Both the position numbers and the translations under genes were made by a program. A DNA stretch of 37,517 nucleotides from a virus. The DNA is taken from positions 1 through 37,517 of IMG/VR virus record IMGVR_UViG_3300030693_000022; one strand, given 5' to 3'. Within the stretch, counting starts at the first letter, position 1. Each line of letters begins with the position of its first letter. Under the pieces are notes generated by a model. It saw only the letters and a program-made list of their open reading frames with translations. It was not told the origin of the DNA and did no database searches. This document shows, piece after piece, positions 17,675 to 36,190 of the stretch.

Positions 17675-17702
17675 AGTATAGATAGCTAAAGAGGGCTGTC
17701 AA
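17675..17702 (-). promoter_or_regulatory. Leftward sigma70-type promoter of the late operon
   Basis: On the minus strand: TTGACA (17697-17702), a 16-base spacer, then TATACT (17675-17680), six of six and five of six matches to the sigma70 consensus. Transcription should start near 17668, about 20 bases before the first gene. The spacer contains CTCTTTAGCT, which recurs on the minus strand at 17981-17990, and the TTTAG...CTATACT string matches other promoters of this phage. It probably drives terminase, head, tail and lysis genes. Confidence 0.85.
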
Positions 17703-17910: not shown

Positions 17911-17974
17911 GGTCGGACGGCCTGGCGACCCGCCGTCGAGCAGGGTGAGCGTGCGCTAACTCGGCCGTCCGACC
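17911..17974. repeat. 12-base perfect inverted repeat
   Basis: GGTCGGACGGCC at 17911-17922 and its exact reverse complement GGCCGTCCGACC at 17963-17974, separated by 40 bases. The arms are GC-rich and could form a stable long-loop hairpin in RNA or single-stranded DNA. There is no following T-run, so it is not a standard terminator. It lies between the late promoter and the AT-rich block. Confidence 0.75.
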
Positions 17975-18050
17975 CGACAGCCAGCTAAAGAGTTCTGAGG
18001 GAGGCTGACGAGGGGTCGAGGCGGGCACTTAGGCTAAACCTAGCCCCGTA

Positions 18051-18199
18051 GCGACACCTTTTTTCGATTTTAAAAGACCCCAAATTCATTTATTCTAATT
18101 CTAAATTATGTATATATACTGTCTATATAGATTCATAGTCTTTTATAAATCTTATAGAAGGTGTGAATGTTCTTAAAAATCAACGACTTAAGGTGTCGC
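18051..18199. repeat. Inverted AAGGTGT-type repeats bracketing an AT-rich block
   Basis: GCGACACCTT at 18051-18060 and its exact reverse complement AAGGTGTCGC at 18190-18199 flank 129 bases that are very AT-rich. Within this, AAGGTGTGAATG (18158-18169) is the exact reverse complement of CATTCACACCTT at 18320-18331, just upstream of the first early gene. The core heptamer AAGGTGT therefore occurs four times in the control region, two in each direction. This looks like iterons or operator sites for a phage protein, or an origin. Confidence 0.7.
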
Positions 18200-18270: not shown

Positions 18271-18299
18271 TTGACTGGTGGCTTGATGTCGGCTAGACT
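18271..18299 (+). promoter_or_regulatory. Rightward promoter of the early operon
   Basis: TTGACT (18271-18276), a 17-base spacer and TAGACT (18294-18299). The -10 box is preceded by GGC, giving GGCTAGACT, the same string form as at other promoters of this phage. Transcription should begin near 18306 and run into the early genes. One AAGGTGT-type repeat (18325-18331) overlaps the leader and could be an operator. Confidence 0.72.
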
Positions 18300-19292: not shown

Positions 19293-19610
19293 ATGACACT
19301 CACTGCATCCGACTACGACATGGCCCTCTACTTCCTCAAGGACAAGGGCGACATCACGCGCTGGCTCGACTGGGAGGAAAAGCGCGAGGCGCTGTGCCTG
19401 GCCGTTCCTGAGCTGAGCGACTGGCTGCTGATGGATCGGATGGTCAGATCGCTCAAGACCGCGATGATGGTCAAGCTGGAGGATTTCGCTTCTGCCGCGC
19501 CGGATCAGGAGCAGGATCCGTTCGGTGCACGCATGGTCATCCCTGCCTCGATGCCGGAGCACCTGAGGGCCGAAGCTGCCATCGCCAAGGCGACCGGGAG
19601 CCAGCCGTGA
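19293..19610 (+). CDS. Early protein sharing a DPFG...MVIP motif with the primase-helicase
   Basis: The 105-residue product has a helical N-terminal part (SDYDMALYFLKDKGDITRWLDWEEKREALCLAVPELSDWLLMDRMVRSLKTAMMVKLEDF) and, at 75-95, DPFGARMVIPASMPEHLRAEA. A nearly identical segment, DPFGESMVIPTNMPVHLKEEA, lies at 183-203 of the VapE-type primase-helicase (22634-24463): 14 of 21 positions match. The start is ATG 19293 with GGAG nine bases before it. The shared segment suggests that both proteins bind the same partner, or that this is a replication accessory factor; the frame is open upstream to 19044 without ribosome-site support. Function otherwise unknown. Confidence 0.7.
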   Translation: MTLTASDYDMALYFLKDKGDITRWLDWEEKREALCLAVPELSDWLLMDRMVRSLKTAMMVKLEDFASAAPDQEQDPFGARMVIPASMPEHLRAEAAIAKATGSQP

Positions 19611-20308
19611 AGGTCGCTGCGCTGTACGTCGAGAAGGACGGATGCTACTTCGGTCTGCCTGGCGTCGATCCTTGGGATGAGGCTCGCGATGCCAGGAAGT
19701 ACACCGGCCCGCATCCTGTCGTGGCGCATCCGCCCTGCCAACGTTGGGGCCGCTTCTGGCACGGCAGCACTCGCAAGCCGCACCAGTTCAAGATGGGCGC
19801 AGACGGTGGCTGCTTCCACGCTGCGTTGGAGGCGGTTGAAAACTTCGGCGGGGTGATCGAGCACCCGTGCGATTCGAAGGCGTGGGATCGCTTTGGGATC
19901 ACGAAGCCAAATCGCGCAGGTGGCTGGACGGCGAACATCGAATGGTTCGAGAGGGAGATGGAGCGCCAGAACCTTCACCATCTCGTTCGCAAGACTGTTC
20001 GACGAACAGCCATCGAAAACGCCGACTCCTGGAGTTGCTGCGTCTACCAGGGCAACTACGGCCACTTTTCCGGCAAGCCAACATGGCTGTACGTTTCCGG
20101 CGTACGTCGAGAAGACCTCCCCGAGCTGCGCTGGGGCAAGACCGAGCAGCGCATCCACCCCCGCGCGCTGGAGCTGCACGGCTACGAGAAGGCCCGTCGC
20201 ATCGGAATGATGGCGATGGTCGGCGGCAAGGACAAGACCCGAATCCGCAACGCCACGCCTCCCGAGTTCCGGGACGTGCTCCTGTCGATCGCTGCATTAG
20301 CCCACTAA
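19607..20308 (+). CDS. Conserved phage protein with PPCQ motif, unknown function
   Basis: The 233-residue protein has a recognisable layout: VAALYVEKDGCYFGLPGVDPWDEARDARKYTGPHPVVAHPPCQRWGRFW, then GGVIEHPCDSKAWDRFG and SWSCCVYQGNYGHFSGKPTWLYV. I recall many actinobacterial and proteobacterial phages with this family and no assigned function. The PPCQ block recalls motif IV of cytosine-5 methyltransferases, but I see no S-adenosylmethionine site, so I do not call it a methyltransferase. GTG at 19607 overlaps the previous stop (GTGA). Confidence 0.7.
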   Translation: MKVAALYVEKDGCYFGLPGVDPWDEARDARKYTGPHPVVAHPPCQRWGRFWHGSTRKPHQFKMGADGGCFHAALEAVENFGGVIEHPCDSKAWDRFGITKPNRAGGWTANIEWFEREMERQNLHHLVRKTVRRTAIENADSWSCCVYQGNYGHFSGKPTWLYVSGVRREDLPELRWGKTEQRIHPRALELHGYEKARRIGMMAMVGGKDKTRIRNATPPEFRDVLLSIAALAH

Positions 20309-20332: not shown

Positions 20333-20361
20333 TTGACGGGGTGGATTTAGGTGGCTAAAGT
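20333..20361 (+). promoter_or_regulatory. Internal early promoter before the 20398 gene
   Basis: TTGACG (20333-20338), a 17-base spacer, and TAAAGT (20356-20361). The -10 region is ATTTAGGTGGCTAAAGT, which matches the phage-wide motif TTTAGnnGGCTAnAnT. The leader to ATG 20398 is about 30 bases with AGGAG close to the start. Confidence 0.68.
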
Positions 20362-20397: not shown

Positions 20398-20802
20398 ATG
20401 ACCACCGAAGCAGCCGCCGCTCTCTACGAAGCCCAGCACCAAGCCAGTATGTACGGCAAGCGATACGCCGTCTTCAACCCGCACGGCAAGCCCGTCAGCG
20501 AACTGCCAGTCATCTACGGCTTCAACAACGGCGGCCCCAGCTGCTTGCTCAGCGCCGTCCTAATCGCCCAGGACGGAACGGAGCTCGGCAACCATTTCTG
20601 CAGCTCCGAGGGTTACATGCGCCATGACTTAGGAATCCTTGAAGGCGTCCGCGACGACAGGCACGAGACGTTCCGAGCGCATTACCCGGACGGCTATTGT
20701 ATGGACTTCGTTGGCTACGAATACGTTCTAACCCACGATGGCCTGAACGCCGCATTAGCTGCTAACAAGGCCAAAAAGGCCGAAGAAGCCAAGACCGCCT
20801 GA
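20398..20802 (+). CDS. Small early protein, unknown
   Basis: A 134-residue product with a mixed strand/helix pattern: KRYAVFNPHGKPVSELPVIYGFNNGGPSCLLSAVLIAQDGTELGNHFCSS, then FVGYEYVLTHDGLNAALAANKAKKAEEAKTA, ending in a Lys/Ala/Glu-rich tail. I do not recognise it. ATG at 20398 has AGGAG at good spacing. Just upstream lies a promoter of its own, so it may be expressed apart from the genes before it. Confidence 0.7.
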   Translation: MTTEAAAALYEAQHQASMYGKRYAVFNPHGKPVSELPVIYGFNNGGPSCLLSAVLIAQDGTELGNHFCSSEGYMRHDLGILEGVRDDRHETFRAHYPDGYCMDFVGYEYVLTHDGLNAALAANKAKKAEEAKTA

Positions 20803-21203: not shown

Positions 21204-21325
<122 letters not shown>

Positions 21326-21362: not shown

Positions 21363-21461
21363 ATGCACCTGCTCTACCTGATCCACCGCGATGACGCACT
21401 CAACGCCGCCTGGGAGGCCTCCCAGGCGGGAGTGCCGATGACTTGGCTGGAGGCTGCATGA
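21363..21461 (+). CDS. Tiny protein, 32 residues, upstream of FtsK-gamma gene
   Basis: ATG 21363 to TGA 21459-21461 encodes 32 residues beginning MHLLYLIHRDDALNAAWEAS. It is not a membrane segment; it reads as one amphipathic helix with aromatic residues. Its TGA overlaps the next ATG (ATGA at 21458), so it is coupled to the following gene. No clear ribosome site is seen (ccaggactccc has AGGA at 9 bases). Function unknown. Confidence 0.5.
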   Translation: MHLLYLIHRDDALNAAWEASQAGVPMTWLEAA

Positions 21462-22060
21462 CCGCGACCATGACCGCACAAGAAGCCGCAGCAAGGATCA
21501 GAGAGGCGCTGGAGATGCTTGCTCAAAGAATCGAAAGGGCGGCGGGTCATCGCACCCTAGCCATTTCAGCTGAAGCAGCAGACGCTATCCGCGCTCTTCT
21601 GGCAGAGAGGGACGAGATGGCCAAGGATGCGGCGCGGCTGCAAGCACGGCTCGATGCGCTGGACAACCTTCCGGCCGAGGACTTCATCCGCAAGGTCGCG
21701 CGCCAGATGGGGTGCAAACCCGCACCTGGCGCCGGAGAGCCGCTGGCCGCCGATATGGTGCTTGTGCCGAGGGAGCCGACGAGCGAGATGCTGCACCGCG
21801 CCATGAAGGACTGCGGAGGCATCGGAGGTGGCTCCAACCCAGCATCCGAACTTGGCGTAAATGATCCTCTGATGCCCCAGGCCGTCGCTCTCGTGGCGGA
21901 ACATCGCAGAGCTTCAATCTCGCTGGTGCAGCGCTACCTGCGCATCGGCTACAACCGCGCAGCCTACATGCTCGAAGCGATGGAGAAACAAGGCATCGTG
22001 CGCGTCAATCCAACGCCGGGCGGCTCGCAGTACCTGATAGTGAAGGACACCCCGCAATGA
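21458..22060 (+). CDS. Phage protein with C-terminal FtsK-gamma winged helix
   Basis: The 200-residue protein has an N-terminal helical coiled-coil region (about 8-70), a middle segment with VLVPREPTSEMLHRAM typical of Ea22-like phage proteins, and, at 135-190, DPLMPQAVALVAEHRRASISLVQRYLRIGYNRAAYMLEAMEKQGIV. The last matches the gamma domain of FtsK, whose winged helix reads octameric KOPS DNA sites and touches the XerD recombinase in host chromosome segregation. Here it stands alone, without motor. ATG 21458 has GGAGG nine bases before it. A DNA-binding role is strongly suggested; its target is not known. Confidence 0.78.
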   Translation: MTATMTAQEAAARIREALEMLAQRIERAAGHRTLAISAEAADAIRALLAERDEMAKDAARLQARLDALDNLPAEDFIRKVARQMGCKPAPGAGEPLAADMVLVPREPTSEMLHRAMKDCGGIGGGSNPASELGVNDPLMPQAVALVAEHRRASISLVQRYLRIGYNRAAYMLEAMEKQGIVRVNPTPGGSQYLIVKDTPQ

Positions 22061-22633: not shown

Positions 22634-24463
22634 CTATTCCCCCTCGTCCCTCATCCACCGCCGAACCGATGACCTCACGTCCGAGTCGTAGGCCGTGACC
22701 TTGACCCAACCTCCAGCCTTGAGAATGTTGGAGATCCGCATCTGGCTGGAACGGTTCTGCTCGTTCATGCTCAGTTTGAGGTCTTCCATGATGCCCGGAA
22801 TAGTGACCTGGGAATGATTGGCGATGATGATCCGCACCCTCGCCTCCCACGGGTCGCCGACGTAGCGCTGCTTCTGCTGGCGCTCGGTCTCCTTGGTGGG
22901 CATCTCCCACCAGGTGTCACCGCGGTTGAAGCAGTGCATGGCCTCCGCGATCAACTGGCGGCGGTTGTCCCGGGCCAGATCAAGCCGGATGTCGCCGCAC
23001 TTGATGGGCCAGCCGTGGCGGAACCCCGTGGAGTCCATGTTGTAGTCGTCCTGGTTGGTCGAGCCGGCCAGAATGGAGGAGCGCGGATGGTCCTCGGCGT
23101 GACGTCCGTACGGCGGCCGGTAGCGGTCGCTGGCCGTTCGCAACGTCCTCTTGACGGAGTTCTCATCCGCCTTGCTGAACGACTGCAACTCGGCCACCTC
23201 GATGACCCACTTGCCGGCGAGCGTAATGGCGAAGTCATTGGAGTCCGGCGCCGCGGACATGATGGCGTACCAGCGGCCTCCGATGACCTCCAGCAAGGTG
23301 GACTTGCTCTTGCCCTGCTTCCCCTCCAGGATGACCATCGTGTCGAGCTTGCAGCCGGGCTTGAGGGCACGTGCGGCCAGGCCGATCCAGAAGTTGCGCC
23401 CCGCCGCGCGCGCGTAGTCGCTGTCGGGCGTGCCGGCGCAGTCAACGAAGAAGTGTTCGATGCGGCTGACCCCATCCCACGGCTCGATCTGGCCCAGGAA
23501 CTCCAGCAACTCGTTCTTGACGTTGCGGTAGGCGTGCTCAACGATCGCTTGGTGCACGATGTCGCGCGACACTTTGGCCATACCGTAGGCTCGCTGCAAC
23601 TCGATGGTGATGCGGATGTCGTCCGGGTCAGTCCAGTCGCGGGTCTCTTGGCGGTCTGCAGCGTGGGTACGAATCCGGCTCAAGAAGCTGTCGTACCACA
23701 CCATGTCTTTGTAGAAGCGCCCCAGGATCAGGGAGACGTTGGAGACGTTGGGAACAGGCTTGCCGGCGACCATGTCGAGCCCCGCATCCGTCCACCCCTG
23801 ATTGCCCATGCGCGTGGTCGTGTCGTCGCGTCGGGCCTTATCGAGCATGTCCAGCGCTTCCTCCTTGAGGTGCACTGGCATGTTGGTCGGGATGACCATC
23901 GACTCGCCGAAGGGATCTCTGATCTCCCCGTCGTCATCGGTCTGGACACGCTGGAGCCCACGCACGGGCTCAGGCAGCGGGATCGGACGGTCCATGAACA
24001 GGTCGAACCGGTAGTCCTCGTAGAGCCGCTTGGCGTCCGCGGCCGTCCACTCCTGCTCGTCTGACAGCGTCCAGCCGTCAGGCATGTGCGAGACCTTGAT
24101 CTCCTCCAGGCTGAAGCCCAGGCGGTCAAGCTCGCCCGAGACCATGTCCATCTCGTGCTGGGCCACGGGGTCATTGGACGGCAGCAGGATCGCGCTCAGG
24201 TTCTCCCGAGCCTTGAGCGCTGCCCAATTGGCCTGCTCCGACCGCTCGCCCGTCCAGGTGACGACTACGCAGCCGGGGAACAGGTTGCGCGCGAGTTCAG
24301 CATTGCGCACTGAGTCAACGACCAGTAGCGGAGCGTGGCCAACCTTGATCGCACGGTACAACTCGTAGACATCGCGAGGGTTGTTCGCTGCTCGAACAAT
24401 GGGCGCCTCCTCAGCGTCGTAACCCGCGAGCCACTCGTCATTTTCTTGGTGGCTGATAGCCAT
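22634..24463 (-). CDS. VapE-type primase-helicase with degenerate TOPRIM-like N-terminus
   Basis: A 609-residue protein. Residues about 45-150 have TOPRIM-like structure (PLLVVDSVRNAELARNLFPGCVVVTWTG and DGWTLSDEQEWTAADAKRLYEDY), but the catalytic Glu and DxD seem altered. Residues 183-203 are the DPFG...MVIP motif also found at 19293-19610. Residues 370-500 are the VapE/D5-like helicase core: Walker A EGKQGKSKST (380-389), Walker B WVIEVAEL (419-426), then VKRTLRTASDRYRPPYGRHAEDHPRSSILAGSTNQ. It should unwind DNA at the replication fork, possibly with primase activity. Its start overlaps the VRR-NUC gene by 26 bases. Confidence 0.85.
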   Translation of the reverse strand: MAISHQENDEWLAGYDAEEAPIVRAANNPRDVYELYRAIKVGHAPLLVVDSVRNAELARNLFPGCVVVTWTGERSEQANWAALKARENLSAILLPSNDPVAQHEMDMVSGELDRLGFSLEEIKVSHMPDGWTLSDEQEWTAADAKRLYEDYRFDLFMDRPIPLPEPVRGLQRVQTDDDGEIRDPFGESMVIPTNMPVHLKEEALDMLDKARRDDTTTRMGNQGWTDAGLDMVAGKPVPNVSNVSLILGRFYKDMVWYDSFLSRIRTHAADRQETRDWTDPDDIRITIELQRAYGMAKVSRDIVHQAIVEHAYRNVKNELLEFLGQIEPWDGVSRIEHFFVDCAGTPDSDYARAAGRNFWIGLAARALKPGCKLDTMVILEGKQGKSKSTLLEVIGGRWYAIMSAAPDSNDFAITLAGKWVIEVAELQSFSKADENSVKRTLRTASDRYRPPYGRHAEDHPRSSILAGSTNQDDYNMDSTGFRHGWPIKCGDIRLDLARDNRRQLIAEAMHCFNRGDTWWEMPTKETERQQKQRYVGDPWEARVRIIIANHSQVTIPGIMEDLKLSMNEQNRSSQMRISNILKAGGWVKVTAYDSDVRSSVRRWMRDEGE

Positions 24464-24830
24464 TGATCGCTCGGGTTAGATCGTCTACTGAAGACGCGAC
24501 GGTGGCGATGCCGCCGGCCTGGTTGATGGCCGCCACGAATTGCTGCTGTAGCTTCCATCGCTCGAATTGCTTGCCGGACTTGGGAGGTCGCCAGTCGGAG
24601 CCCTTGACCTCGCAGGCGGTGATGATGGCCACCGTTGCGCCCACCATCTCAGGCGTGATGACCTTCTCGCACCATCCGAGCAGGTCAGCGCCACCCTTGC
24701 CGCCCACGCCGTAGTGCACCCAACGGCCGGTCTCGTCTTGGTAGGCGCCGATGTTGTTGCGCAGAAGGCGCGCGCCGGCCTTGGGGGCTTCCATCTGGAT
24801 GTCGCGCTGGATCTCTGATTCGGCGGTCAT
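24438..24830 (-). CDS. VRR-NUC domain nuclease
   Basis: The 130-residue product has the layout of phage VRR-NUC (PD-(D/E)XK fold) nucleases: AESEIQRDIQ at the start, GVGGKGGADLLG (D49), ACEVKG (E74-x-K76), and QQQFVAAINQAGGIATVASSVDDL at the end. These proteins are structure-specific DNA nucleases used in replication or recombination and usually sit beside phage helicase genes. It lies between the SF2 helicase (ATGA overlap at 24827-24830) and the primase-helicase. Motifs are intact. Confidence 0.88.
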   Translation of the reverse strand: MTAESEIQRDIQMEAPKAGARLLRNNIGAYQDETGRWVHYGVGGKGGADLLGWCEKVITPEMVGATVAIITACEVKGSDWRPPKSGKQFERWKLQQQFVAAINQAGGIATVASSVDDLTRAINGYQPPRK

Positions 24831-26188
24831 GCGTGCCTTCGATTAAATATTTTCCACGCCCACCCAGGCTTGTACCCGCGCTCCTTGGCGAGCGTCATCA
24901 ACTCCGGCAGGGTCTTGGCCATCCCCTGCTCCTGGCGCTTCTTGATGGCCGCCTGACGCTCTGCCAGGGCCACCTCTTCCAACTCGCCCTCCTCGGCCTG
25001 CACCTCGCGCGCCTCGATGGGCCACTCCCACTTGCAGTAGGGGCAGATCATGGTGCCAGAGCGGGCAGCCGCGTAGCAGCCACCACAGGTGCGCACCGAC
25101 ATCTCGCCCGCCTTCTTCTTGGCCTTGCCGGTGGCCTCCTCGCCCAGGCTCCACTCGTGCACCTCGTCGGGGTAGCCGTGCCTGCCCGCGTTGCCCGCGT
25201 GGTCTAGGATGATGGCGTGGGTTTTTCCCGGGTGTCGACGAAGTGCGCGCCCGACCTGCTGGAGGTAGAGCGAGAGTGAAGCTGTCGGACGCAGAAGGAT
25301 GGCGACCTCGATGGCGGGGATGTCGAACCCCTCGGAGATGAGGTCGCAGGAGGTGAGGACTTTGATGTCGCCTCGGGAGAAGGCAGCGATGAGCCCCTTC
25401 CGCTCCTTGCGATCCATGCCCCCATCGATGCGGGCCGCCTTGACGCCACGCGCCTCGAATTCCAGAGCGACAGCCGCAGCGTGATCCAGAGACACGCAGA
25501 ACGCCACCGCTCGCTTACCAGCTCCACGCTTAAGGTAGTGATCGACGGCATTGCCCGTGATCGATGGTTTGTCCATGGCATTTTTCATGTCCTCCCGGTT
25601 GAAGTCGCCCATCCTCATGCGCATCTTGGCGATGGCAATGGGCGGGCAATAGAGCACGTAGTCAGACAGCCGCTCGCGTGCGATCAGGTCGGCAACAGAC
25701 AGGCCGAGAACCATGTGGGCGAAGTGCCCGCGCAGGGGTTTGCCGTCGAGCCGGATGGGGGTTGCCGTAACGCCCAGGACGTAGCACGTGGCGAAGTGAG
25801 CGAGGATGCGGCTCCACGTTGACCCCTGGCTCGCGTGGTGAGCCTCATCGAGGATCAACATGTCGGGAAGCGGGTAGTCCTGCATCCGGTTCACGAGCGT
25901 GAAGACGGAGCAGACCATCACCGGCTTGTAGGTCGAAGGCCGACCCGAGGCAACGAATCCATGCTCCACACCGAAGCTGGTCAGAGACGCGCTGACCTGA
26001 TCCATAAGCTCCTCGCGGTGCACGAGGATGTAGACGCTCTTGCCCCGCTTGGCGATGGAGTTTGCGAGGTAGGAAAAGCACACCGTCTTGCCCGATCCGG
26101 TCGGGCTGACAAGGAGGACGTTCTTGAACTGCTGGAACGCAGCCCGAAGCTCGCCGATCATGTCTTGCTGGTCGGGGTAGAGCTGCAT
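24827..26188 (-). CDS. SF2 DNA helicase (DEAH-type) with C-terminal zinc ribbon
   Basis: The 453-residue protein has the superfamily-2 helicase motifs in order: Walker A SPTGSGKT (28-35), DEAH (114-117), TAT (141-143), and motif VI QVGRALRR (311-318). After the helicase core there are two CxxC pairs (Cys368/371 and Cys382/385), a zinc ribbon that may bind DNA. It should unwind DNA during phage replication. ATG at 26188 lies 3 bases after the Cro-like gene stop, so it is in the same operon as the repressor and the nuclease. The helicase call is firm, the exact substrate unknown. Confidence 0.9.
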   Translation of the reverse strand: MQLYPDQQDMIGELRAAFQQFKNVLLVSPTGSGKTVCFSYLANSIAKRGKSVYILVHREELMDQVSASLTSFGVEHGFVASGRPSTYKPVMVCSVFTLVNRMQDYPLPDMLILDEAHHASQGSTWSRILAHFATCYVLGVTATPIRLDGKPLRGHFAHMVLGLSVADLIARERLSDYVLYCPPIAIAKMRMRMGDFNREDMKNAMDKPSITGNAVDHYLKRGAGKRAVAFCVSLDHAAAVALEFEARGVKAARIDGGMDRKERKGLIAAFSRGDIKVLTSCDLISEGFDIPAIEVAILLRPTASLSLYLQQVGRALRRHPGKTHAIILDHAGNAGRHGYPDEVHEWSLGEEATGKAKKKAGEMSVRTCGGCYAAARSGTMICPYCKWEWPIEAREVQAEEGELEEVALAERQAAIKKRQEQGMAKTLPELMTLAKERGYKPGWAWKIFNRRHA

Positions 26189-26191
26189 GGC

Positions 26192-26383
26192 TCAGTGCGT
26201 CTTGCGAGCCTTGAGGTCGTATTCCTTGCTCAGCTTGAGCTTGCCACCCGACAGCCGCTCCAGGTCGTACTGCTTGTCCTTGGGCACCTCCGTCCACTGG
26301 CTGACGGCTCCTGCCGTGATCTTGAGGGCGTCGGCGAGCGCGGTCGTGCCACCGGCCCAGTCGATTGCTTCTTGCTTGGTCAT
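26192..26383 (-). CDS. Cro-like HTH transcription regulator
   Basis: A 63-residue protein containing a helix-turn-helix: TKQEAIDWAGGTTALADALKITAGAVSQWTEVPKDKQYDLERLSGGKL. The AGGTTALADALKITAGAVSQW stretch is typical of small Cro/YdaS-type phage regulators. It is transcribed leftward from the divergent promoter pair at 26408-26469, so it probably binds there and controls its own operon and the rightward one. ATG 26383 has AGGAG upstream. As in other phages it may be the lytic switch repressor, but no CI-type partner is present in the window. Confidence 0.82.
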   Translation of the reverse strand: MTKQEAIDWAGGTTALADALKITAGAVSQWTEVPKDKQYDLERLSGGKLKLSKEYDLKARKTH

Positions 26384-26407
26384 CTGTGTAGGCTCCTAAT
26401 GGCTCAC

Positions 26408-26423
26408 AGTGTAGCCGCCTAAA
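26408..26423 (-). promoter_or_regulatory. Leftward promoter element of the Cro-like/helicase operon
   Basis: On the minus strand the sequence reads TTTAGGCGGCTACACT, with TACACT (26408-26413) as -10 box. It is the mirror partner of the rightward promoter 40 bases away, to which it is similar at 16 of 21 positions. A -35 box is weak (no TTGACA-like hexamer at 16 to 18 bases), so an activator or extended -10 may be needed. The first gene starts at 26383. Confidence 0.6.
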
Positions 26424-26441
26424 TTATTTTGCGCTACAGGC

Positions 26442-26469
26442 TTGCGAGGATTATTTAGTTGGCTATACT
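26442..26469 (+). promoter_or_regulatory. Rightward promoter of the recombination operon
   Basis: TTGCGA (26442-26447), 16-base spacer, TATACT (26464-26469). The spacer ends in ATTTAGTTGGC, so the whole element again reads TTTAGTTGGCTATACT. The leader to ATG 26496 is about 20 bases and carries AAAGGAGG. Divergent from the Cro-like promoter and probably bound by that regulator. Confidence 0.75.
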
Positions 26470-26495: not shown

Positions 26496-26717
26496 ATGCC
26501 GATCACCCCCGTTCCGGTGGCAACCGCCAAGACCCGGATTTACCTCGTGTCCGATGGCGTCTCGAACGACCGTCTGATCCGAGCCAAGACCAGCGCAGGC
26601 GCCCTCAAGCACGCCGCGTCGGTGTTCACCGTCAAAGCGGCCTCGCAAGACGACCTCGTGGAGGCCCTGGGGGCTGGCGTGACGGTCGAGACGGCGGGCC
26701 AGGAGTCCGAAGAATGA
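26496..26717 (+). CDS. Small protein, 73 residues, unknown
   Basis: The 73-residue product (MPITPVPVATAKTRIYLVSDGVSNDRLIRAKTSAGALKHAASVFTVKAASQDDLVEALGAGVTVETAGQESEE) looks like a compact alpha/beta unit: a strand TRIYLVSD, a helix AGALKHAASV and a second unit DDLVEALGAGVTVE. The pattern R-L-I-R-A-x-T-x-A-x-A-x-x-H-A is seen in small phage proteins beside recombination genes. ATG 26496 has a perfect AAAGGAGG ribosome site; the open frame upstream to 26442 only covers the promoter. Function unknown. Confidence 0.75.
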   Translation: MPITPVPVATAKTRIYLVSDGVSNDRLIRAKTSAGALKHAASVFTVKAASQDDLVEALGAGVTVETAGQESEE

Positions 26718-26959
26718 AACCCATCGTCATCCAACGCTGCGCCAATGGCGTGATCCTGTCGCCCATGCAGCAAGCCGGCGAGCCGGCACCGCTGCCGACC
26801 GAGATCTTCGTCTTCACGGACGGCCATGACCACCAACTGGTCGAGCACCTGAAGGCCGCGATCAAGCCCATCACGCACGTTGACCTCAACCACGTCAAGG
26901 CCGCGCTCGACATCGACACCCTGCCGCCCATCCCGGGCGTCGGCGACCAGCTGCCGTAA
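26714..26959 (+). CDS. Small protein, 81 residues, unknown
   Basis: ATG 26714 overlaps the previous stop (ATGA). The 81-residue product (MKPIVIQRCANGVILSPMQQAGEPAPLPTEIFVFTDGHDHQLVEHLKAAIKPITHVDLNHVKAALDIDTLPPIPGVGDQLP) is a mixed strand/helix protein with several His residues (HDHQLVEH). No known family. It is followed by a 72-base gap that holds no gene and a weak hairpin (GGCCC...GGGCC), then the next gene. Confidence 0.7.
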   Translation: MKPIVIQRCANGVILSPMQQAGEPAPLPTEIFVFTDGHDHQLVEHLKAAIKPITHVDLNHVKAALDIDTLPPIPGVGDQLP

Positions 26960-27031
26960 CGCAGCGGCTTGGCCCGCACATGGGGCCTTGCCAGTGCGCT
27001 AAGAAACAGCGACTCAACCAAGGAGAATGAG

Positions 27032-27349
27032 ATGATCAAATCAGGTACGAGCAAAGTCTGGATCACGAGCCGATGGCTCTCACCTAGCGATGTTCTGGAG
27101 AAGGATGGACAGGGCATTTGCGACACTTCCGGCGTGATGCTGGCCAACCATGACATGTCAGCCTCGGGCTGGGTCTACATCGGTGAGGCCAACGTGGCAT
27201 TCAAGTTAATCGACCGCAAGAAGATGCTCGAGCAGAAGCTAGTCTCCCTCAAGGCCGTCCTGGAGAAAGACCGCGCAGACACGCAAATGCGCCACAACGC
27301 GATCCTCGACCAGATCAGCAAGCTGGAAGCGATTGGGTACGAGCAATGA
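27032..27349 (+). CDS. Hypothetical protein with C-terminal coiled coil, 105 residues
   Basis: ATG 27032 has AGGAG six bases upstream. The first half (MIKSGTSKVWITSRWLSPSDVLEKDGQGICDTSGVMLANHDMSASGWVYIGEANVAFKLIDRKKMLEQ) seems beta-rich; the second half (KLVSLKAVLEKDRADTQMRHNAILDQISKLEAIGYEQ) is a coiled coil. The pattern SGWVYIGEANVAFKLI recalls small phage proteins of recombination operons. Its stop overlaps the next gene by ATGA. Unknown function. Confidence 0.7.
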   Translation: MIKSGTSKVWITSRWLSPSDVLEKDGQGICDTSGVMLANHDMSASGWVYIGEANVAFKLIDRKKMLEQKLVSLKAVLEKDRADTQMRHNAILDQISKLEAIGYEQ

Positions 27350-28200
27350 CCCCCGGCCTCTACGACTCCCACGACATCCCCATGTCGGTCTACCTCGCTG
27401 ACCCGTGCCCCACTCCGAGCCTGTCAGCGAGCGCGATAAATGCCCTCCTGCGCAGCCCCGCGCACTGCCACTGGAACCACCCCAAGCTCGGGGGGCACGG
27501 CGGCGATGACGCGACGGTCGCGGACACCGGCACGGTGGCCCACGACCTGCTGTGGGGCGGCGAGGGGAAAATCTGCGTCATCGACGCCGACGACTGGCGC
27601 AAGAAGGAGGCCAAGGAGCAGCGCGACGAAGCCCGCGCCAACGGCCTGACGCCGATCCTGGCCGTCAAGTACAACACCGTCAAGGTGATGGCGCGCACCG
27701 CTGTGGCCTTCATCTCCGAGTCCGACATCAAGGGCGTCATGGAAGCCGGCCAGTCCGAGATGACGATGATCTGGCAGGAGGACGGCCTGTGGTTCCGCGC
27801 GCGGCCAGACTGGCTCAACCTGGAGGCGGGCACCATGGTGCACTACAAGACCTCTGTTGCGAGCGTCGAGCCGAACCGCTTCGGTCGATCCATCGTGCCG
27901 GCCATGGGGTACGACACTGCGATGGCGTTCTATCGCCGTGGGTGCAAGGCTCTGGGCCTACCGGTCGATCTGCACGTCATGCTGGCCCAGGAGCAGGTGG
28001 CGCCCTACGCATGCTCGCTGCTGTCGCTGTCTGAGGCATCCTGGGCTGTTGCCGACGCCAAGGTGGAGCGTGCCATCGCGATCTGGCGCAAGGCTCTCGC
28101 GACAGACACGTGGCCGGCGTACTCGACGCGCATCCATGACGTGGAGCCGACACCGTGGGCGATTGCGGAGGTTGAGGCGGCGATGGGGGATGAGCAATGA
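27346..28200 (+). CDS. PD-(D/E)XK exonuclease-like protein, RecE/exonuclease-8-type
   Basis: A 284-residue protein with the layout of phage-encoded exodeoxyribonuclease-8-like (PDDEXK, DUF3799-like) proteins: an SxSAINALLRSP start, TGTVAHDLLW (G..H66), SEMT (E138), RARPDWL (D155), then a beta strand VHYKTSV (H166-Y-K168) and YDTAMAFYRRG near the end. In this family the strand normally reads DxKT; here the acid before K is His (see findings). It should resect DNA ends for recombination with the ATPase downstream. The gene is ATGA-overlapped with its neighbours. Confidence 0.8.
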   Translation: MTPGLYDSHDIPMSVYLADPCPTPSLSASAINALLRSPAHCHWNHPKLGGHGGDDATVADTGTVAHDLLWGGEGKICVIDADDWRKKEAKEQRDEARANGLTPILAVKYNTVKVMARTAVAFISESDIKGVMEAGQSEMTMIWQEDGLWFRARPDWLNLEAGTMVHYKTSVASVEPNRFGRSIVPAMGYDTAMAFYRRGCKALGLPVDLHVMLAQEQVAPYACSLLSLSEASWAVADAKVERAIAIWRKALATDTWPAYSTRIHDVEPTPWAIAEVEAAMGDEQ

Positions 28201-28262
28201 CGATCGCCATCGTATTTTTCGCCTGGGTGATCCTCAATTGGGTCTCATCGGAGGACGTATGA
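28197..28262 (+). CDS. Membrane peptide, 21 residues, between exonuclease and ATPase genes
   Basis: A 21-codon frame fitted exactly between two genes: its ATG (28197) overlaps the exonuclease stop and its TGA (28260-28262) overlaps the ATPase start (both ATGA). The product MTIAIVFFAWVILNWVSSED(V) is one hydrophobic stretch with two Trp and an acidic end. Alternatively it may only serve to bring ribosomes from the exonuclease to the ATPase start. Real translation is likely from the exact coupling, but a function is not shown. Confidence 0.5.
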   Translation: MTIAIVFFAWVILNWVSSEDV

Positions 28263-29254
28263 CCTTCCAATTCAAACCCGCCGTCCGCCGCGACGTGAAC
28301 CTGCTGATCGGCCTGGCTGGCGGCACGGGTAGCGGCAAGACCTTCACCGCCCTGCGCCTCGCAACCGGCCTGGCTGGCGGCCAGAAATTCGCCCTGATCG
28401 ACACCGAAGCCGGCCGCGCAAACCACTACGCCGACCAGTTCGCTTTCGACCATGGCGACCTACGCGCGCCGTTCACCCCTGACGCCTACACCGAGGCCAT
28501 CCTGTCCGCCGATGCGGCTGGATACCCCGTCATCGTGGTTGACTCGATGAGCCACGAATGGGCGGGCGATGGCGGCATTCTCGACTGGCAGGAGGCCGAG
28601 CTTGACCGCATGGCTGGCGACAACTGGCAAAAGCGCGAGGCGTGCAAGATGGCCGCTTGGATCAAGCCCAAGCTGTCGCACAAGCACATGATGCAGAAGC
28701 TCCTGCAGGTACGCGCCCACCTGATCCTGTGCTTCCGTGCGGAGCCCAAGGTGGACATCGCCAAGGACGACCGCGGCAAGACCATCATCATCCCCAAGCA
28801 GAGCCTCACCGGCCTCGATGGATGGATACCCGTCACCGAGAAGAACCTGCCCTTCGAGCTGACCGTCTCGTTCCTCTTCACAGCCGACCATCCGGGCGTC
28901 CCCAAGCCCATCAAGCTCCAGGAGCAGCACAAGCCGCTGTTCCCCCTCAATCAGCCCATCACCGAGGAGTCTGGCCGGCTCATCGCCGCGTGGGCAAAGG
29001 GTGGCGTGCCACCCGCACCACCGGCCAAGAAGGAGTTCAACCTTGCAGACGCTCTCAAATCTCTGGAGCCGTTTGGTGCAGACCTGGAGACGGTCACCAA
29101 GTATCTCGGACACGCTCCTACCGCAAGTGACCGCAAGAAGCTGGGTGACCTCTATAGACAGCTCCACGCCGCTGCAATGCATCCAGATCCATCCGGATCG
29201 CCGGGGGCTGAGGGCGGAGTGGGTTCCGATGACGCAGCGGGTCAGGGCGGGTAG
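28259..29254 (+). CDS. RecA-like recombination ATPase (Sak-type)
   Basis: A 331-residue protein with Walker A GGTGSGKT (21-28) and Walker B VIVVDSMSHEW (D95), in a RecA-fold layout (ALRLATGLAGGQKFALIDTEAGRANHYADQF). It continues with FRAEPKVDIAKDDRGKTIIIPKQSLTGLDGWIPVTEKNLPFELTVSFLFT, typical of phage ATPases of the AAA/Sak4-like group that assist single-strand annealing recombination. The C-terminal 80 residues are charged and less conserved. GGAGG lies close before ATG 28259. It is paired with the exonuclease-like gene. ATPase call firm; recombination role inferred. Confidence 0.82.
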   Translation: MTFQFKPAVRRDVNLLIGLAGGTGSGKTFTALRLATGLAGGQKFALIDTEAGRANHYADQFAFDHGDLRAPFTPDAYTEAILSADAAGYPVIVVDSMSHEWAGDGGILDWQEAELDRMAGDNWQKREACKMAAWIKPKLSHKHMMQKLLQVRAHLILCFRAEPKVDIAKDDRGKTIIIPKQSLTGLDGWIPVTEKNLPFELTVSFLFTADHPGVPKPIKLQEQHKPLFPLNQPITEESGRLIAAWAKGGVPPAPPAKKEFNLADALKSLEPFGADLETVTKYLGHAPTASDRKKLGDLYRQLHAAAMHPDPSGSPGAEGGVGSDDAAGQGG

Positions 29255-30007: not shown

Positions 30008-31354
30008 TCATGCCTCAAGTCCTTTTGCATACCCCATCGCCTGCAGCTGGGGCAGTTGCTTCACCATGCGCCCCCTGCCTATGTCTGTGCGGTAGAAAGG
30101 CGAGTTCGGGATTTTCACCTTCTTCAGAGCCGAGTACGCAGACCTCCTTGCTCCGGAGATTGTCTTGCCCGTTCCAGTGCACACCAGCACGTAGTCTCCC
30201 GACGTGACCCAGTGCGGCATCTCCACCACCTTGCCGTCGATCTCGACCGGTGCCTCGCCCATCATGATCTCTGAGGGGTGGATGTGCTCCAGGTCATCCG
30301 CGGCCCCGTACACAGGGATGCCGCACACCTCTTTGTTAGTGAGCTTCGAATATGGGAAGTCGGGGATCGCCATGACGACAGAGATACCGACCTCTCCCTC
30401 CTCAAACTCGATGGTGTCGCGACCATGAAGAAGATCAAGCATCCACTGAACAGGGTCGCCGCGCATCTGAGATATGACGTTGTGGCGAAGCGGCCATCCG
30501 TCGCGCATCGTCCACTCCATGGGCCACGGGTGGCCCTTGTCATCGATGATGCAGTTGTTGTCGATGTAGCCGACATATCCGATCTTCTTCAGGTATGGCT
30601 CGATGGGGTAAAGCACCTGATCGGCCAGCTTGCTCTTGAGCACCGGCCTGGTCAGCGTTCCCATCTCCCCGGTGGCAACCCCAAGGTCACCATTCATGAG
30701 CTTCTTGTTCTCCCAATTCTCGTAGAGCCACTTGCTCCAGCCGCCGGGGCCGTACCAGCCCCCGACCGCCATCTCTATGCCGACCTTCTTCTCCTGGAGG
30801 ATGAAGCCCTCGGCCTTCGCGGCTTTACGGAGGTCTTCGCGGCCCTTCCAGCGCTGGAGCATGTGAACCATGTCACCAGCGTTATGGGCCACGTAGCTGA
30901 GCGCCTTGTTGGCATCGCCGCTGGGCTTGGACACGAGCATCTCGGGATGCTTTTTGACGTGAGCGATGGCAGCGTCATAGTCGTGAAACGCGATGGACTG
31001 CATGATCTCAATTCCATGCTGAGCCATTAGCTTTTGGCCGTGCTCGCGGTCAAGCTCCATCTTGGCGGCGTCGAGACCGCCACAGAAGACCGGGTATCCG
31101 CGCTTGATGAGCGCGTCCATCATGTCCACGTAGTACGTGTTGTCGGGCATGTAGATGAGGTCTGCCCAGTCGAACCACTTGCGCTGCACCTCGTTGAGAT
31201 CGCGCACCTTGTTGATGATCCCCTCGCCCGACCGGCGCTGCTCACCACCGGGCCGCGGACGGTCGTACCACAGGCATTGATGGCCGTAGTCCTGGGCACG
31301 CATCAGCATGTCCAGGCAGTTGGAGGTCGTGTCGATGCAGAGGATGCGGCTCAT
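30008..31354 (-). CDS. PurD-like ATP-grasp ligase
   Basis: The 448-residue protein has the three PurD-type domains: an N-terminal Rossmann-like part (RILCIDTTSNCLDMLMRAQDYGH), the ATP-grasp core with VSKPSGDANKA (K143), ILQEKKVGIEMAVGG, GDLGVATGEMG (D223) and WPMEWTMRDGWP (E280), and the C-terminal domain DYVLVCTGTGKTISGARRSAYSALKKV...YRTDIG. PurD joins glycine to phosphoribosylamine in purine synthesis; in this relative the canonical E-x-N metal site is E-x-T. It may couple an amino acid or acid to another acceptor. The gene follows the gp16-like ejection gene (ATGA), so it is expressed with virion genes. Family call firm; substrate unknown. Confidence 0.82.
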   Translation of the reverse strand: MSRILCIDTTSNCLDMLMRAQDYGHQCLWYDRPRPGGEQRRSGEGIINKVRDLNEVQRKWFDWADLIYMPDNTYYVDMMDALIKRGYPVFCGGLDAAKMELDREHGQKLMAQHGIEIMQSIAFHDYDAAIAHVKKHPEMLVSKPSGDANKALSYVAHNAGDMVHMLQRWKGREDLRKAAKAEGFILQEKKVGIEMAVGGWYGPGGWSKWLYENWENKKLMNGDLGVATGEMGTLTRPVLKSKLADQVLYPIEPYLKKIGYVGYIDNNCIIDDKGHPWPMEWTMRDGWPLRHNVISQMRGDPVQWMLDLLHGRDTIEFEEGEVGISVVMAIPDFPYSKLTNKEVCGIPVYGAADDLEHIHPSEIMMGEAPVEIDGKVVEMPHWVTSGDYVLVCTGTGKTISGARRSAYSALKKVKIPNSPFYRTDIGRGRMVKQLPQLQAMGYAKGLEA

Positions 31355-35584: not shown

Positions 35585-36190
35585 ATGGATGAAGTCTGGT
35601 TGCCGATTGGCGGATACGAAGGTCTTTACTCGGTCAGCAACCTGGGCCGAATAAGGAGTGAGGCCAGAACCTGCAAGGCCGGTTTCAACAAGATCAGGAA
35701 GGTTAAGGAGCGCATCATGGCGCTCCCCGTATGCCACAGTGATCACGGGTACAGACAGGTTAGGCTGAATCGAGACAACGGAGGTAGGACATTCCTTGTC
35801 CACCTCTTGGTGATCCGAACGTTCGTCGGCGAACCACCCGAGGGAATGGAATGCGCCCACCTCGATGGAGACAGAACCAACCCCGCATTGTCCAACCTTG
35901 AGTGGAAGACTCACGTCGAAAATGAAAGGGACAAGAGGCTTCACGGGACATTCCTTAGCGGTGAAAAATGCCCCTGGTCGAAGCTGACTGACGAACAGGT
36001 CGCAGCCATACGTGCCGACAAAAGGCGGCAATGGCTGATCGCTGAATCGTACGGAATGTCTCAATGCCAAATCTCCAGGATCATTGGCCGGAAGCGCCGT
36101 GTAACGCAACCTGTTGCGCATCGAACGACCACCCCTCAGGACTCCACGGCACGCGCCGACCCCGATCCAGCCGGATGCACACCGTCATGA
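35585..36190 (+). CDS. NUMOD4-HNH homing endonuclease
   Basis: A 201-residue protein with NUMOD4 at 4-30 (WLPIGGYEGLYSVSNLGRIRS), HNH at 70-110 (FLVHLLVIRTFVGEPPEGMECAHLDGDRTNPALSNLEWKTH, with H73, H92, N104) and a C-terminal DNA-binding unit (SGEKCPWSKLTDEQVAAIRADKRRQWLIAESYGMSQCQISRIIGRKRR). It should cut intron- or gene-free sites and move by homing. Its last 36 residues (about 166-201) lie antisense over the end of the 2OG oxygenase gene; the family normally ends near residue 173, so the tail is probably read-through. AGGA lies upstream of ATG 35585. Confidence 0.88.
   Translation: MDEVWLPIGGYEGLYSVSNLGRIRSEARTCKAGFNKIRKVKERIMALPVCHSDHGYRQVRLNRDNGGRTFLVHLLVIRTFVGEPPEGMECAHLDGDRTNPALSNLEWKTHVENERDKRLHGTFLSGEKCPWSKLTDEQVAAIRADKRRQWLIAESYGMSQCQISRIIGRKRRVTQPVAHRTTTPQDSTARADPDPAGCTPS

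Follow-up and report, generated by a model that had tools for sequence, protein, structure and literature searches.

A symmetric TTTAG-N4-CTAAA motif as a candidate operator of a phage's own Cro-family repressor in a genome with no recognisable cI

Cro is one half of the switch by which phage lambda decides between lysis and lysogeny. In phage P22, too, Cro has a partner of cI type (c2), and the lysogeny module is complete. The residues of the Cro recognition helix reportedly correlate with, and predict, the sequence of the OR half-site, as is said to have been shown by Hall, LeFevre and Cordes in 2005 (J Mol Biol 350:667), a principle shared with the helix-operator rule described below. OR3, which phage phiKO2 shares unchanged with N15, is the one site shifted by phiKO2 Cro (PMC4997575); it is the only site bound, and Cro apparently does not regulate itself (PMC4997575, PMC4488713).

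The DNA considered here, referred to as the window, is a viral stretch of 37,517 nucleotides (IMG/VR record IMGVR_UViG_3300030693_000022). Its promoters share a motif that we read, with a probability of roughly 0.83, as the operator of the phage's own Cro-family repressor. The repressor would then shut off the replication operon to which its gene belongs, along with the recombination operon and the 20333 and late promoters. The computations that bear on this reading cover the motif, its palindromic form, its register with promoters, the protein family, the correlation between helix and operator, and recurrence in other phages.

Motif and promoters in the window

A motif common to four -10 regions had been reported in the first-pass annotation, and all four sites were recovered, with small slips in their coordinates. 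The pattern TTTAGN4CTANANT (TTTAGNNNNCTANANT) has exactly four matches in the whole window and none elsewhere in it, against 0.01 expected and a largest count of 1 in dinucleotide shuffles, an expectation that overstates the significance because the pattern was refined after the sites had been seen. The correlation with the recognition helix and the recurrence in other phages are independent tests and carry more weight than this count. Promoters were ranked by the score of a sigma70-like -35/-10 pair at every position of both strands (74,962 positions). The first four lines below begin with the pattern matches.

17675-17690, minus strand: motif copy TTTAGCTATCTATACT; operator TTTAGCTATCTATA at 17677-17690, within promoter 17675-17702 (TTGACA-16-TATACT, rank 1 of the genome)
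20346-20361, plus strand: motif copy TTTAGGTGGCTAAAGT; perfect operator TTTAGGTGGCTAAA at 20346-20359, within promoter 20333-20361 (TTGACG-17-TAAAGT, rank 4)
26408-26423, minus strand: motif copy TTTAGGCGGCTACACT; operator TTTAGGCGGCTACA at 26410-26423, in the leftward cro promoter (-10 TACACT at 26408-26413)
26454-26469, plus strand: motif copy TTTAGTTGGCTATACT; operator TTTAGTTGGCTATA at 26454-26467, in the rightward promoter 26442-26469 (rank about 6-7)
26408-26469, both strands: 62-bp divergent operator-promoter module, with leftward cro/replication and rightward recombination promoters and operators 44 bp apart
18271-18299, plus strand: fifth promoter, TTGACT-17-TAGACT, rank 2 of the genome, without an operator
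17976-17992, minus strand: near-copy CTCTTTAGCTGGCTGTC, with one good half-site (TTTAG) and no -10
20298-20307, plus strand: extra TAGN4CTA core at the end of gene 19607-20308, doubtful as an operator
26389-26398, minus strand: extra TAGN4CTA core TAGGAGCCTA, containing the likely ribosome-binding site of cro, doubtful as an operator

The top-ranked promoter is directed leftward into the late genes (terminase, portal, capsid), and the 20333 promoter precedes gene 20398-20802. The rightward promoter of the module consists of a -35 TTGCGA from 26442, a spacer of 16 and a -10 TATACT at 26464-26469, and its leftward counterpart has a weak -35 and ranks 408. At the 17675, 20333 and 26442 promoters, the -10 begins at the T of the operator's CTA. 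The sequence at 18271-18299, proposed earlier as a fifth member of the set, is promoter-like and lacks the operator; the near-copy, placed two bases off at 17974-17990, keeps one half-site. An AT-rich noncoding island at 18060-18180, in a genome of 62% GC, lies between the late promoter and the 18271 promoter and is a possible replication origin.

The motif was originally described as an asymmetric box. A two-fold symmetric operator, TTTAG-N4-CTAAA, with its right half fused to the promoter -10, describes it better. The apparent asymmetry would then arise because the -10 hexamer overlaps the right half-site and pulls it towards TAnACT. Two weak points attach to a Cro operator of this form, namely that the palindrome is perfect only at 20346 in the genome, the other three of the four operators each departing from it by one mismatch, and that the -35 of the cro promoter is poor. 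The symmetric core TAGNNNNCTA occurs six times in the window, compared with 1.07 expected from shuffles; at the rate seen across 1.0 Mb of TerL-related phage DNA, 0.97 would be expected (P about 5e-4). This count is not used as a main argument, since TAG-N4-CTA ranks only 16 among 3-mer palindromes in a whole-genome enumeration and is unremarkable on that scale.

One alternative is that the copies share only the consensus of a strong promoter (extended spacer and -10) and do not act as operators. All four copies do sit at -10 elements, and the -10 hexamers alone share TAnAnT. However, the TTTAG half lies in the spacer, outside the sigma70 consensus, the rank-2 promoter does without TTTAG, and the palindrome tracks helix class across Cro homologs, which together make this explanation very improbable.

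That TTTAG falls in the spacer was noted from the start, together with the suggestion that a regulator there could either block or help polymerase. Transcription starts about 7 bp past the -10. Assuming such a start, the operator centre would lie near -15, a position suited to repression and not to helping polymerase. Because the right half also overlaps the -10, bound Cro should exclude sigma70 polymerase. Activation by a spacer-bound, MerR-like regulator is the least probable of the readings considered. It would suit a site between -35 and -10, but MerR promoters typically have a 19-bp spacer whereas those here measure 16-17 bp, the -35 and -10 elements are already near consensus, and the candidate protein carries a P22_Cro domain instead of a MerR domain.

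The Cro-like protein and its genome

The candidate regulator is encoded next to the divergent module, whose symmetric operators overlap its own promoter.

26192-26383, minus strand: cro-like gene, 63 aa, P22_Cro family, recognition helix ITAGAVSQW, predicted binder of the motif
22634-26188, minus strand: leftward operon after cro, with a helicase, an endonuclease-like gene and a VapE-type helicase/primase (domain scans)
26496-29254, plus strand: rightward operon, with small ORFs, a PDDEXK nuclease (DUF3799) and an AAA ATPase (domain scans)

The protein is related by sequence to P22 Cro, matching P22_Cro (PF14549) with an E-value of 8e-18 and 64.4 bits against a curated cut-off of 30.2. Its AlphaFold2 model (pLDDT 80) is all-helical and has the five helices of the Cro fold. 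The best PDB matches of the model are N15 and P22 Cro (TM 0.73-0.75, probability 1.00), with E-values of about 3e-3, which are modest and belong to a protein of only 63 aa. The closest is N15 Cro, including its complex with operator (6on0). It is likely, judging from family and helix, that the 63-aa protein binds the TTTAG-N4-CTAAA motif.

A sibling contig (3300030677_000027) bridges the end of the window to its start across a 27-bp gap; the genome is thus circularly permuted and, at about 37.5 kb, virtually complete. The record contains no PF00589 match for an integrase and no HTH_3 or S24 match for a CI, and Pfam and PHROG scans of the main ORFs returned no lysogeny genes. In three control records (G003, G004, G008), an integrase and an HTH_3 repressor both scored over cut-off. 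The gene divergent from cro is a 73-aa ORF with no Pfam match, not a recognisable cI, and the integrase and lysogeny module of a lambdoid immunity region were not found. A CI of an unrecognised family is possible. Rfam and tRNA scans of the window were empty.

Several other features of the window are recorded here as separate observations. The protein encoded at 21458-22060 on the plus strand has at its C-terminus an FtsK gamma domain (PF09397, E 5e-19), a winged helix that reads DNA and usually occurs in chromosome translocases. A GGCTCC/GGCTAC unit repeat occupies 21208-21320, and two contigs of a sibling assembly cease to match within it. ATP-grasp domains of purine-biosynthesis GARS (PurD-like) lie among the leftward genes, at 30008-31354 on the minus strand, and a NUMOD4/HNH homing-endonuclease ORF at 35585-36190 on the plus strand is opposite in direction to the genes around it.

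Helix class, operator and recurrence in other phages

The phage collection yielded only Cro homologs below 60% identity. By recognition helix, Cro homologs fall into two classes. In a set of 97 non-redundant homologs, 31 carry T-x-G-A-[VI]-S-Q-W (G class) and 66 carry Q in place of the G (Q class). TTTAG-N4-CTAAA with at most one mismatch lies upstream of 23 of the 31 G-class genes and none of the 66 Q-class genes, compared with 4 of 155 control segments. The Fisher value for G against Q (7e-16) overstates the case, because the homologs are not mutually independent and the G set includes the window phage's sibling contig; the split of operators by class is nonetheless clean in these upstream regions. 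Palindromes counted without a prior gave TTAG-N4-CTAA as the commonest upstream of the G class (14/31) and AAGC-N3-GCTT upstream of the Q class (32/66). The N15 Cro helix, TPGAVYQW, belongs to the G class, and N15 OR3 (TTATAGCTGGCTATAA) carries the TAG-N4-CTA core. The proposal that the Cro-like gene encodes the binder has thus held up on protein family, on the helix-operator correlation, on DNA-only scans that retrieve cro, and on an experimentally tested relative (phiKO2/N15 OR3).

Variants of the arrangement were seen among the homologs. A G-helix subclass (L022, L256, L259, L260, L334) has TTTAG-N5-CTAAA upstream, its one extra spacer base hinting that the dimer is arranged differently. 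Three members of this subclass are bacterial MAG contigs, two titled Alphaproteobacteria and one Pseudomonadota (L256:1992-3116, L259:2992-4971, L260:2992-4959), in which an acetolactate synthase large subunit apparently carries a P22_Cro-type HTH with helix VTPGAVSQW fused to its N-terminus (Pfam check made on L260), with TTTAG-N5-CTAAA upstream of the fusion gene; this is possibly a self-regulating enzyme. The Cro homologs in L017, L023 and L281 face AAA-ATPase or ERF-like genes instead of cI, as judged by eye, so that pairing of cro with recombination genes in the absence of CI may extend beyond the TTTAG class.

Searches that used DNA alone led back to cro genes. Among 2.9 million viral contigs, many paired perfect operators adjoin HTH genes, of the Cro type or another, and frequently a further pair lies at a distance, like OR and OL; 9 of 80 such loci (8 of 52 non-redundant) pass a stricter Cro profile, against 1% of random positions. 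A composite -35/operator/-10 scan found a Cro-family gene within 150 bp in 33 of 71 loci (13 of 40 non-redundant), against 2.1% of random positions. Most of these loci belong to one phage group in which cro, with helix TKGAVSQW or TDGAVSQW, faces small ORFs and ERF and YqaJ recombination genes; a VRR-NUC-like gene lies on the cro side in the loci inspected. The group's records, which may be fragments, yielded no integrase or S24 match, and their sole HTH_3-like match is the short Cro itself.

The geometry of the divergent module is shared with this group. Each of the 21 distinct paired sequences from the window and the group has its two operator-promoters at a distance of exactly 44 bp (a few loci being counted on both strands). 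A scan for the 62-bp geometry with relaxed ends returned 31 stretches, consisting of the window's sibling contig, about 26 members of the cro/ERF/YqaJ group and four likely chance hits. The latter (L413, L414, L415, L417) have no Cro-like helix nearby and were set aside as chance or coding matches. Over the 30-bp module spacer, window and group agree at 8-18 of 30 positions, and the module may accordingly go back to a distant common ancestor. At E 1e-4, none of the window's ORFs matched loci of the group; the sole match of a window ORF among the loci of the 62-bp scan was the homing-endonuclease ORF, to a chance-hit locus. Positions 17000-37517 had no megablast match in the phage collection, and a helicase query retrieved only the sibling contig. 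Because its geometry is fixed in groups with no other protein similarity, the module looks either mobile or strongly constrained.

A motif scan of related phages had been proposed. The divergent pair recurs in about 26 contigs, and the TTTAG operator was not found at the late promoters of TerL relatives (53-78% identity), so that late control rests on one genome. Both results favour a narrower possibility, in which Cro truly acts on the divergent pair at 26408-26469 alone, the sites at 17677 and 20346 being look-alike promoters or relics. Cro would then be an autorepressor of local reach instead of a global timer. Yet 20346 is the genome's only perfect palindrome, both sites keep the -10 register within top-ranked promoters, and several loci of the cro/ERF/YqaJ group have a second operator-promoter 400-700 bp from the first. 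We consider this restricted role unlikely, though the most serious of the alternatives.

Proposed circuit and comparison with known systems

If the operator reading is correct, each half of TTTAG-N4-CTAAA would receive a recognition helix (T-A-G-A-V-S-Q-W) of the Cro dimer, which would block access of sigma70 polymerase. With two operator-promoters back to back at 26408-26469, Cro should repress both flanking operons, its own replication operon and the recombination operon, and the further operator copies would place two more promoters, the rightward one at 20333 and the leftward late one at 17702, under its control. The four promoters would close according to operator affinity. We infer binding, repression, transcription starts and the role in timing from sequence. 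In the absence of a recognisable cI, a negative-feedback timer is simpler than a lysis-lysogeny switch, and a Cro-only negative-feedback circuit is the most likely arrangement. The original suggestion, that a single regulator may set the timing of early, recombination and late transcription, is plausible from where the sites lie, though the fifth promoter has no operator. As a matter of timing, it is odd that an early protein should repress the strongest, late promoter; the late genes might be turned on in time if the affinity of the operator allows it, if replicated genomes titrate Cro, or if the late region enters with a delay.

More tentatively, and at odds clearly below even, the 62-bp divergent switch may be a stand-alone, CI-independent circuit common to phages that are unrelated and do not seem to be lysogenic; a single Cro would there directly set transcription at the early, middle and late stages without a prophage repressor. 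The open-access literature, to which the search was confined (subscription journals lay outside it), yielded no account of a Cro circuit like this one without CI.

The nearest structural relatives are N15 and phiKO2 Cro with OR3 (PDB 6on0, 2hin), which share with the window the all-helical Cro fold, a G-class helix and the TAG-N4-CTA core; unlike the window, they have a prophage repressor, cB, opposite cro, and a TTATAG half-site rather than TTTAG. P22 Cro (PF14549; PDB 1rzs) belongs to the same Pfam family and has the same fold and a similar size, but its helix, SDAAVSQW, differs.

Six cI/cro phages (L025, L257, L279, L306, L320, L324) resemble the window in operator (TTTAG-N4-CTAAA), helix class and the position of operators adjoining cro. 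They differ in having the classical cI-cro divergence, with an integrase in some records; their paired operators are mostly 47-48 bp apart (56 in L324), and several have a second pair elsewhere. As is known from lambda, the CI and Cro of one phage commonly share operators, and in L025, L257 and L279 the TTTAG-N4-CTAAA sites lie between cI and cro. Hence the window's operators could be read mainly by a prophage or host repressor of the same specificity, such as a related prophage's CI, in immunity or superinfection control. This is improbable, given that the phage's own Cro, of matching helix class, is encoded beside the sites and the closed genome has no recognisable cI-type gene.

Close in organisation to the circuit proposed for the phage's own Cro is the cro/ERF/YqaJ group (L339, L351, L358, L393, L394), known here only as metagenome contigs. 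It has the same 62-bp module and 44-bp spacing, cro facing recombination genes, and, like the window, no S24 or integrase match. Unlike the window, several members have the second operator-promoter downstream of the first, and no other protein similarity to the window was detected. The motif thus appears to be a known kind of operator, that of Cro, within an unusual CI-less network that includes a late promoter. The Cro half of the switch appears to stand alone in both the window and this second group, where the fixed 62-bp module ties it to replication and recombination genes, and in the window genome the circuit would extend to the late promoter. Together they offer a compact system for asking what Cro does when CI is absent, and the G/Q helix rule provides a testable one-residue determinant of specificity in a large Cro family.
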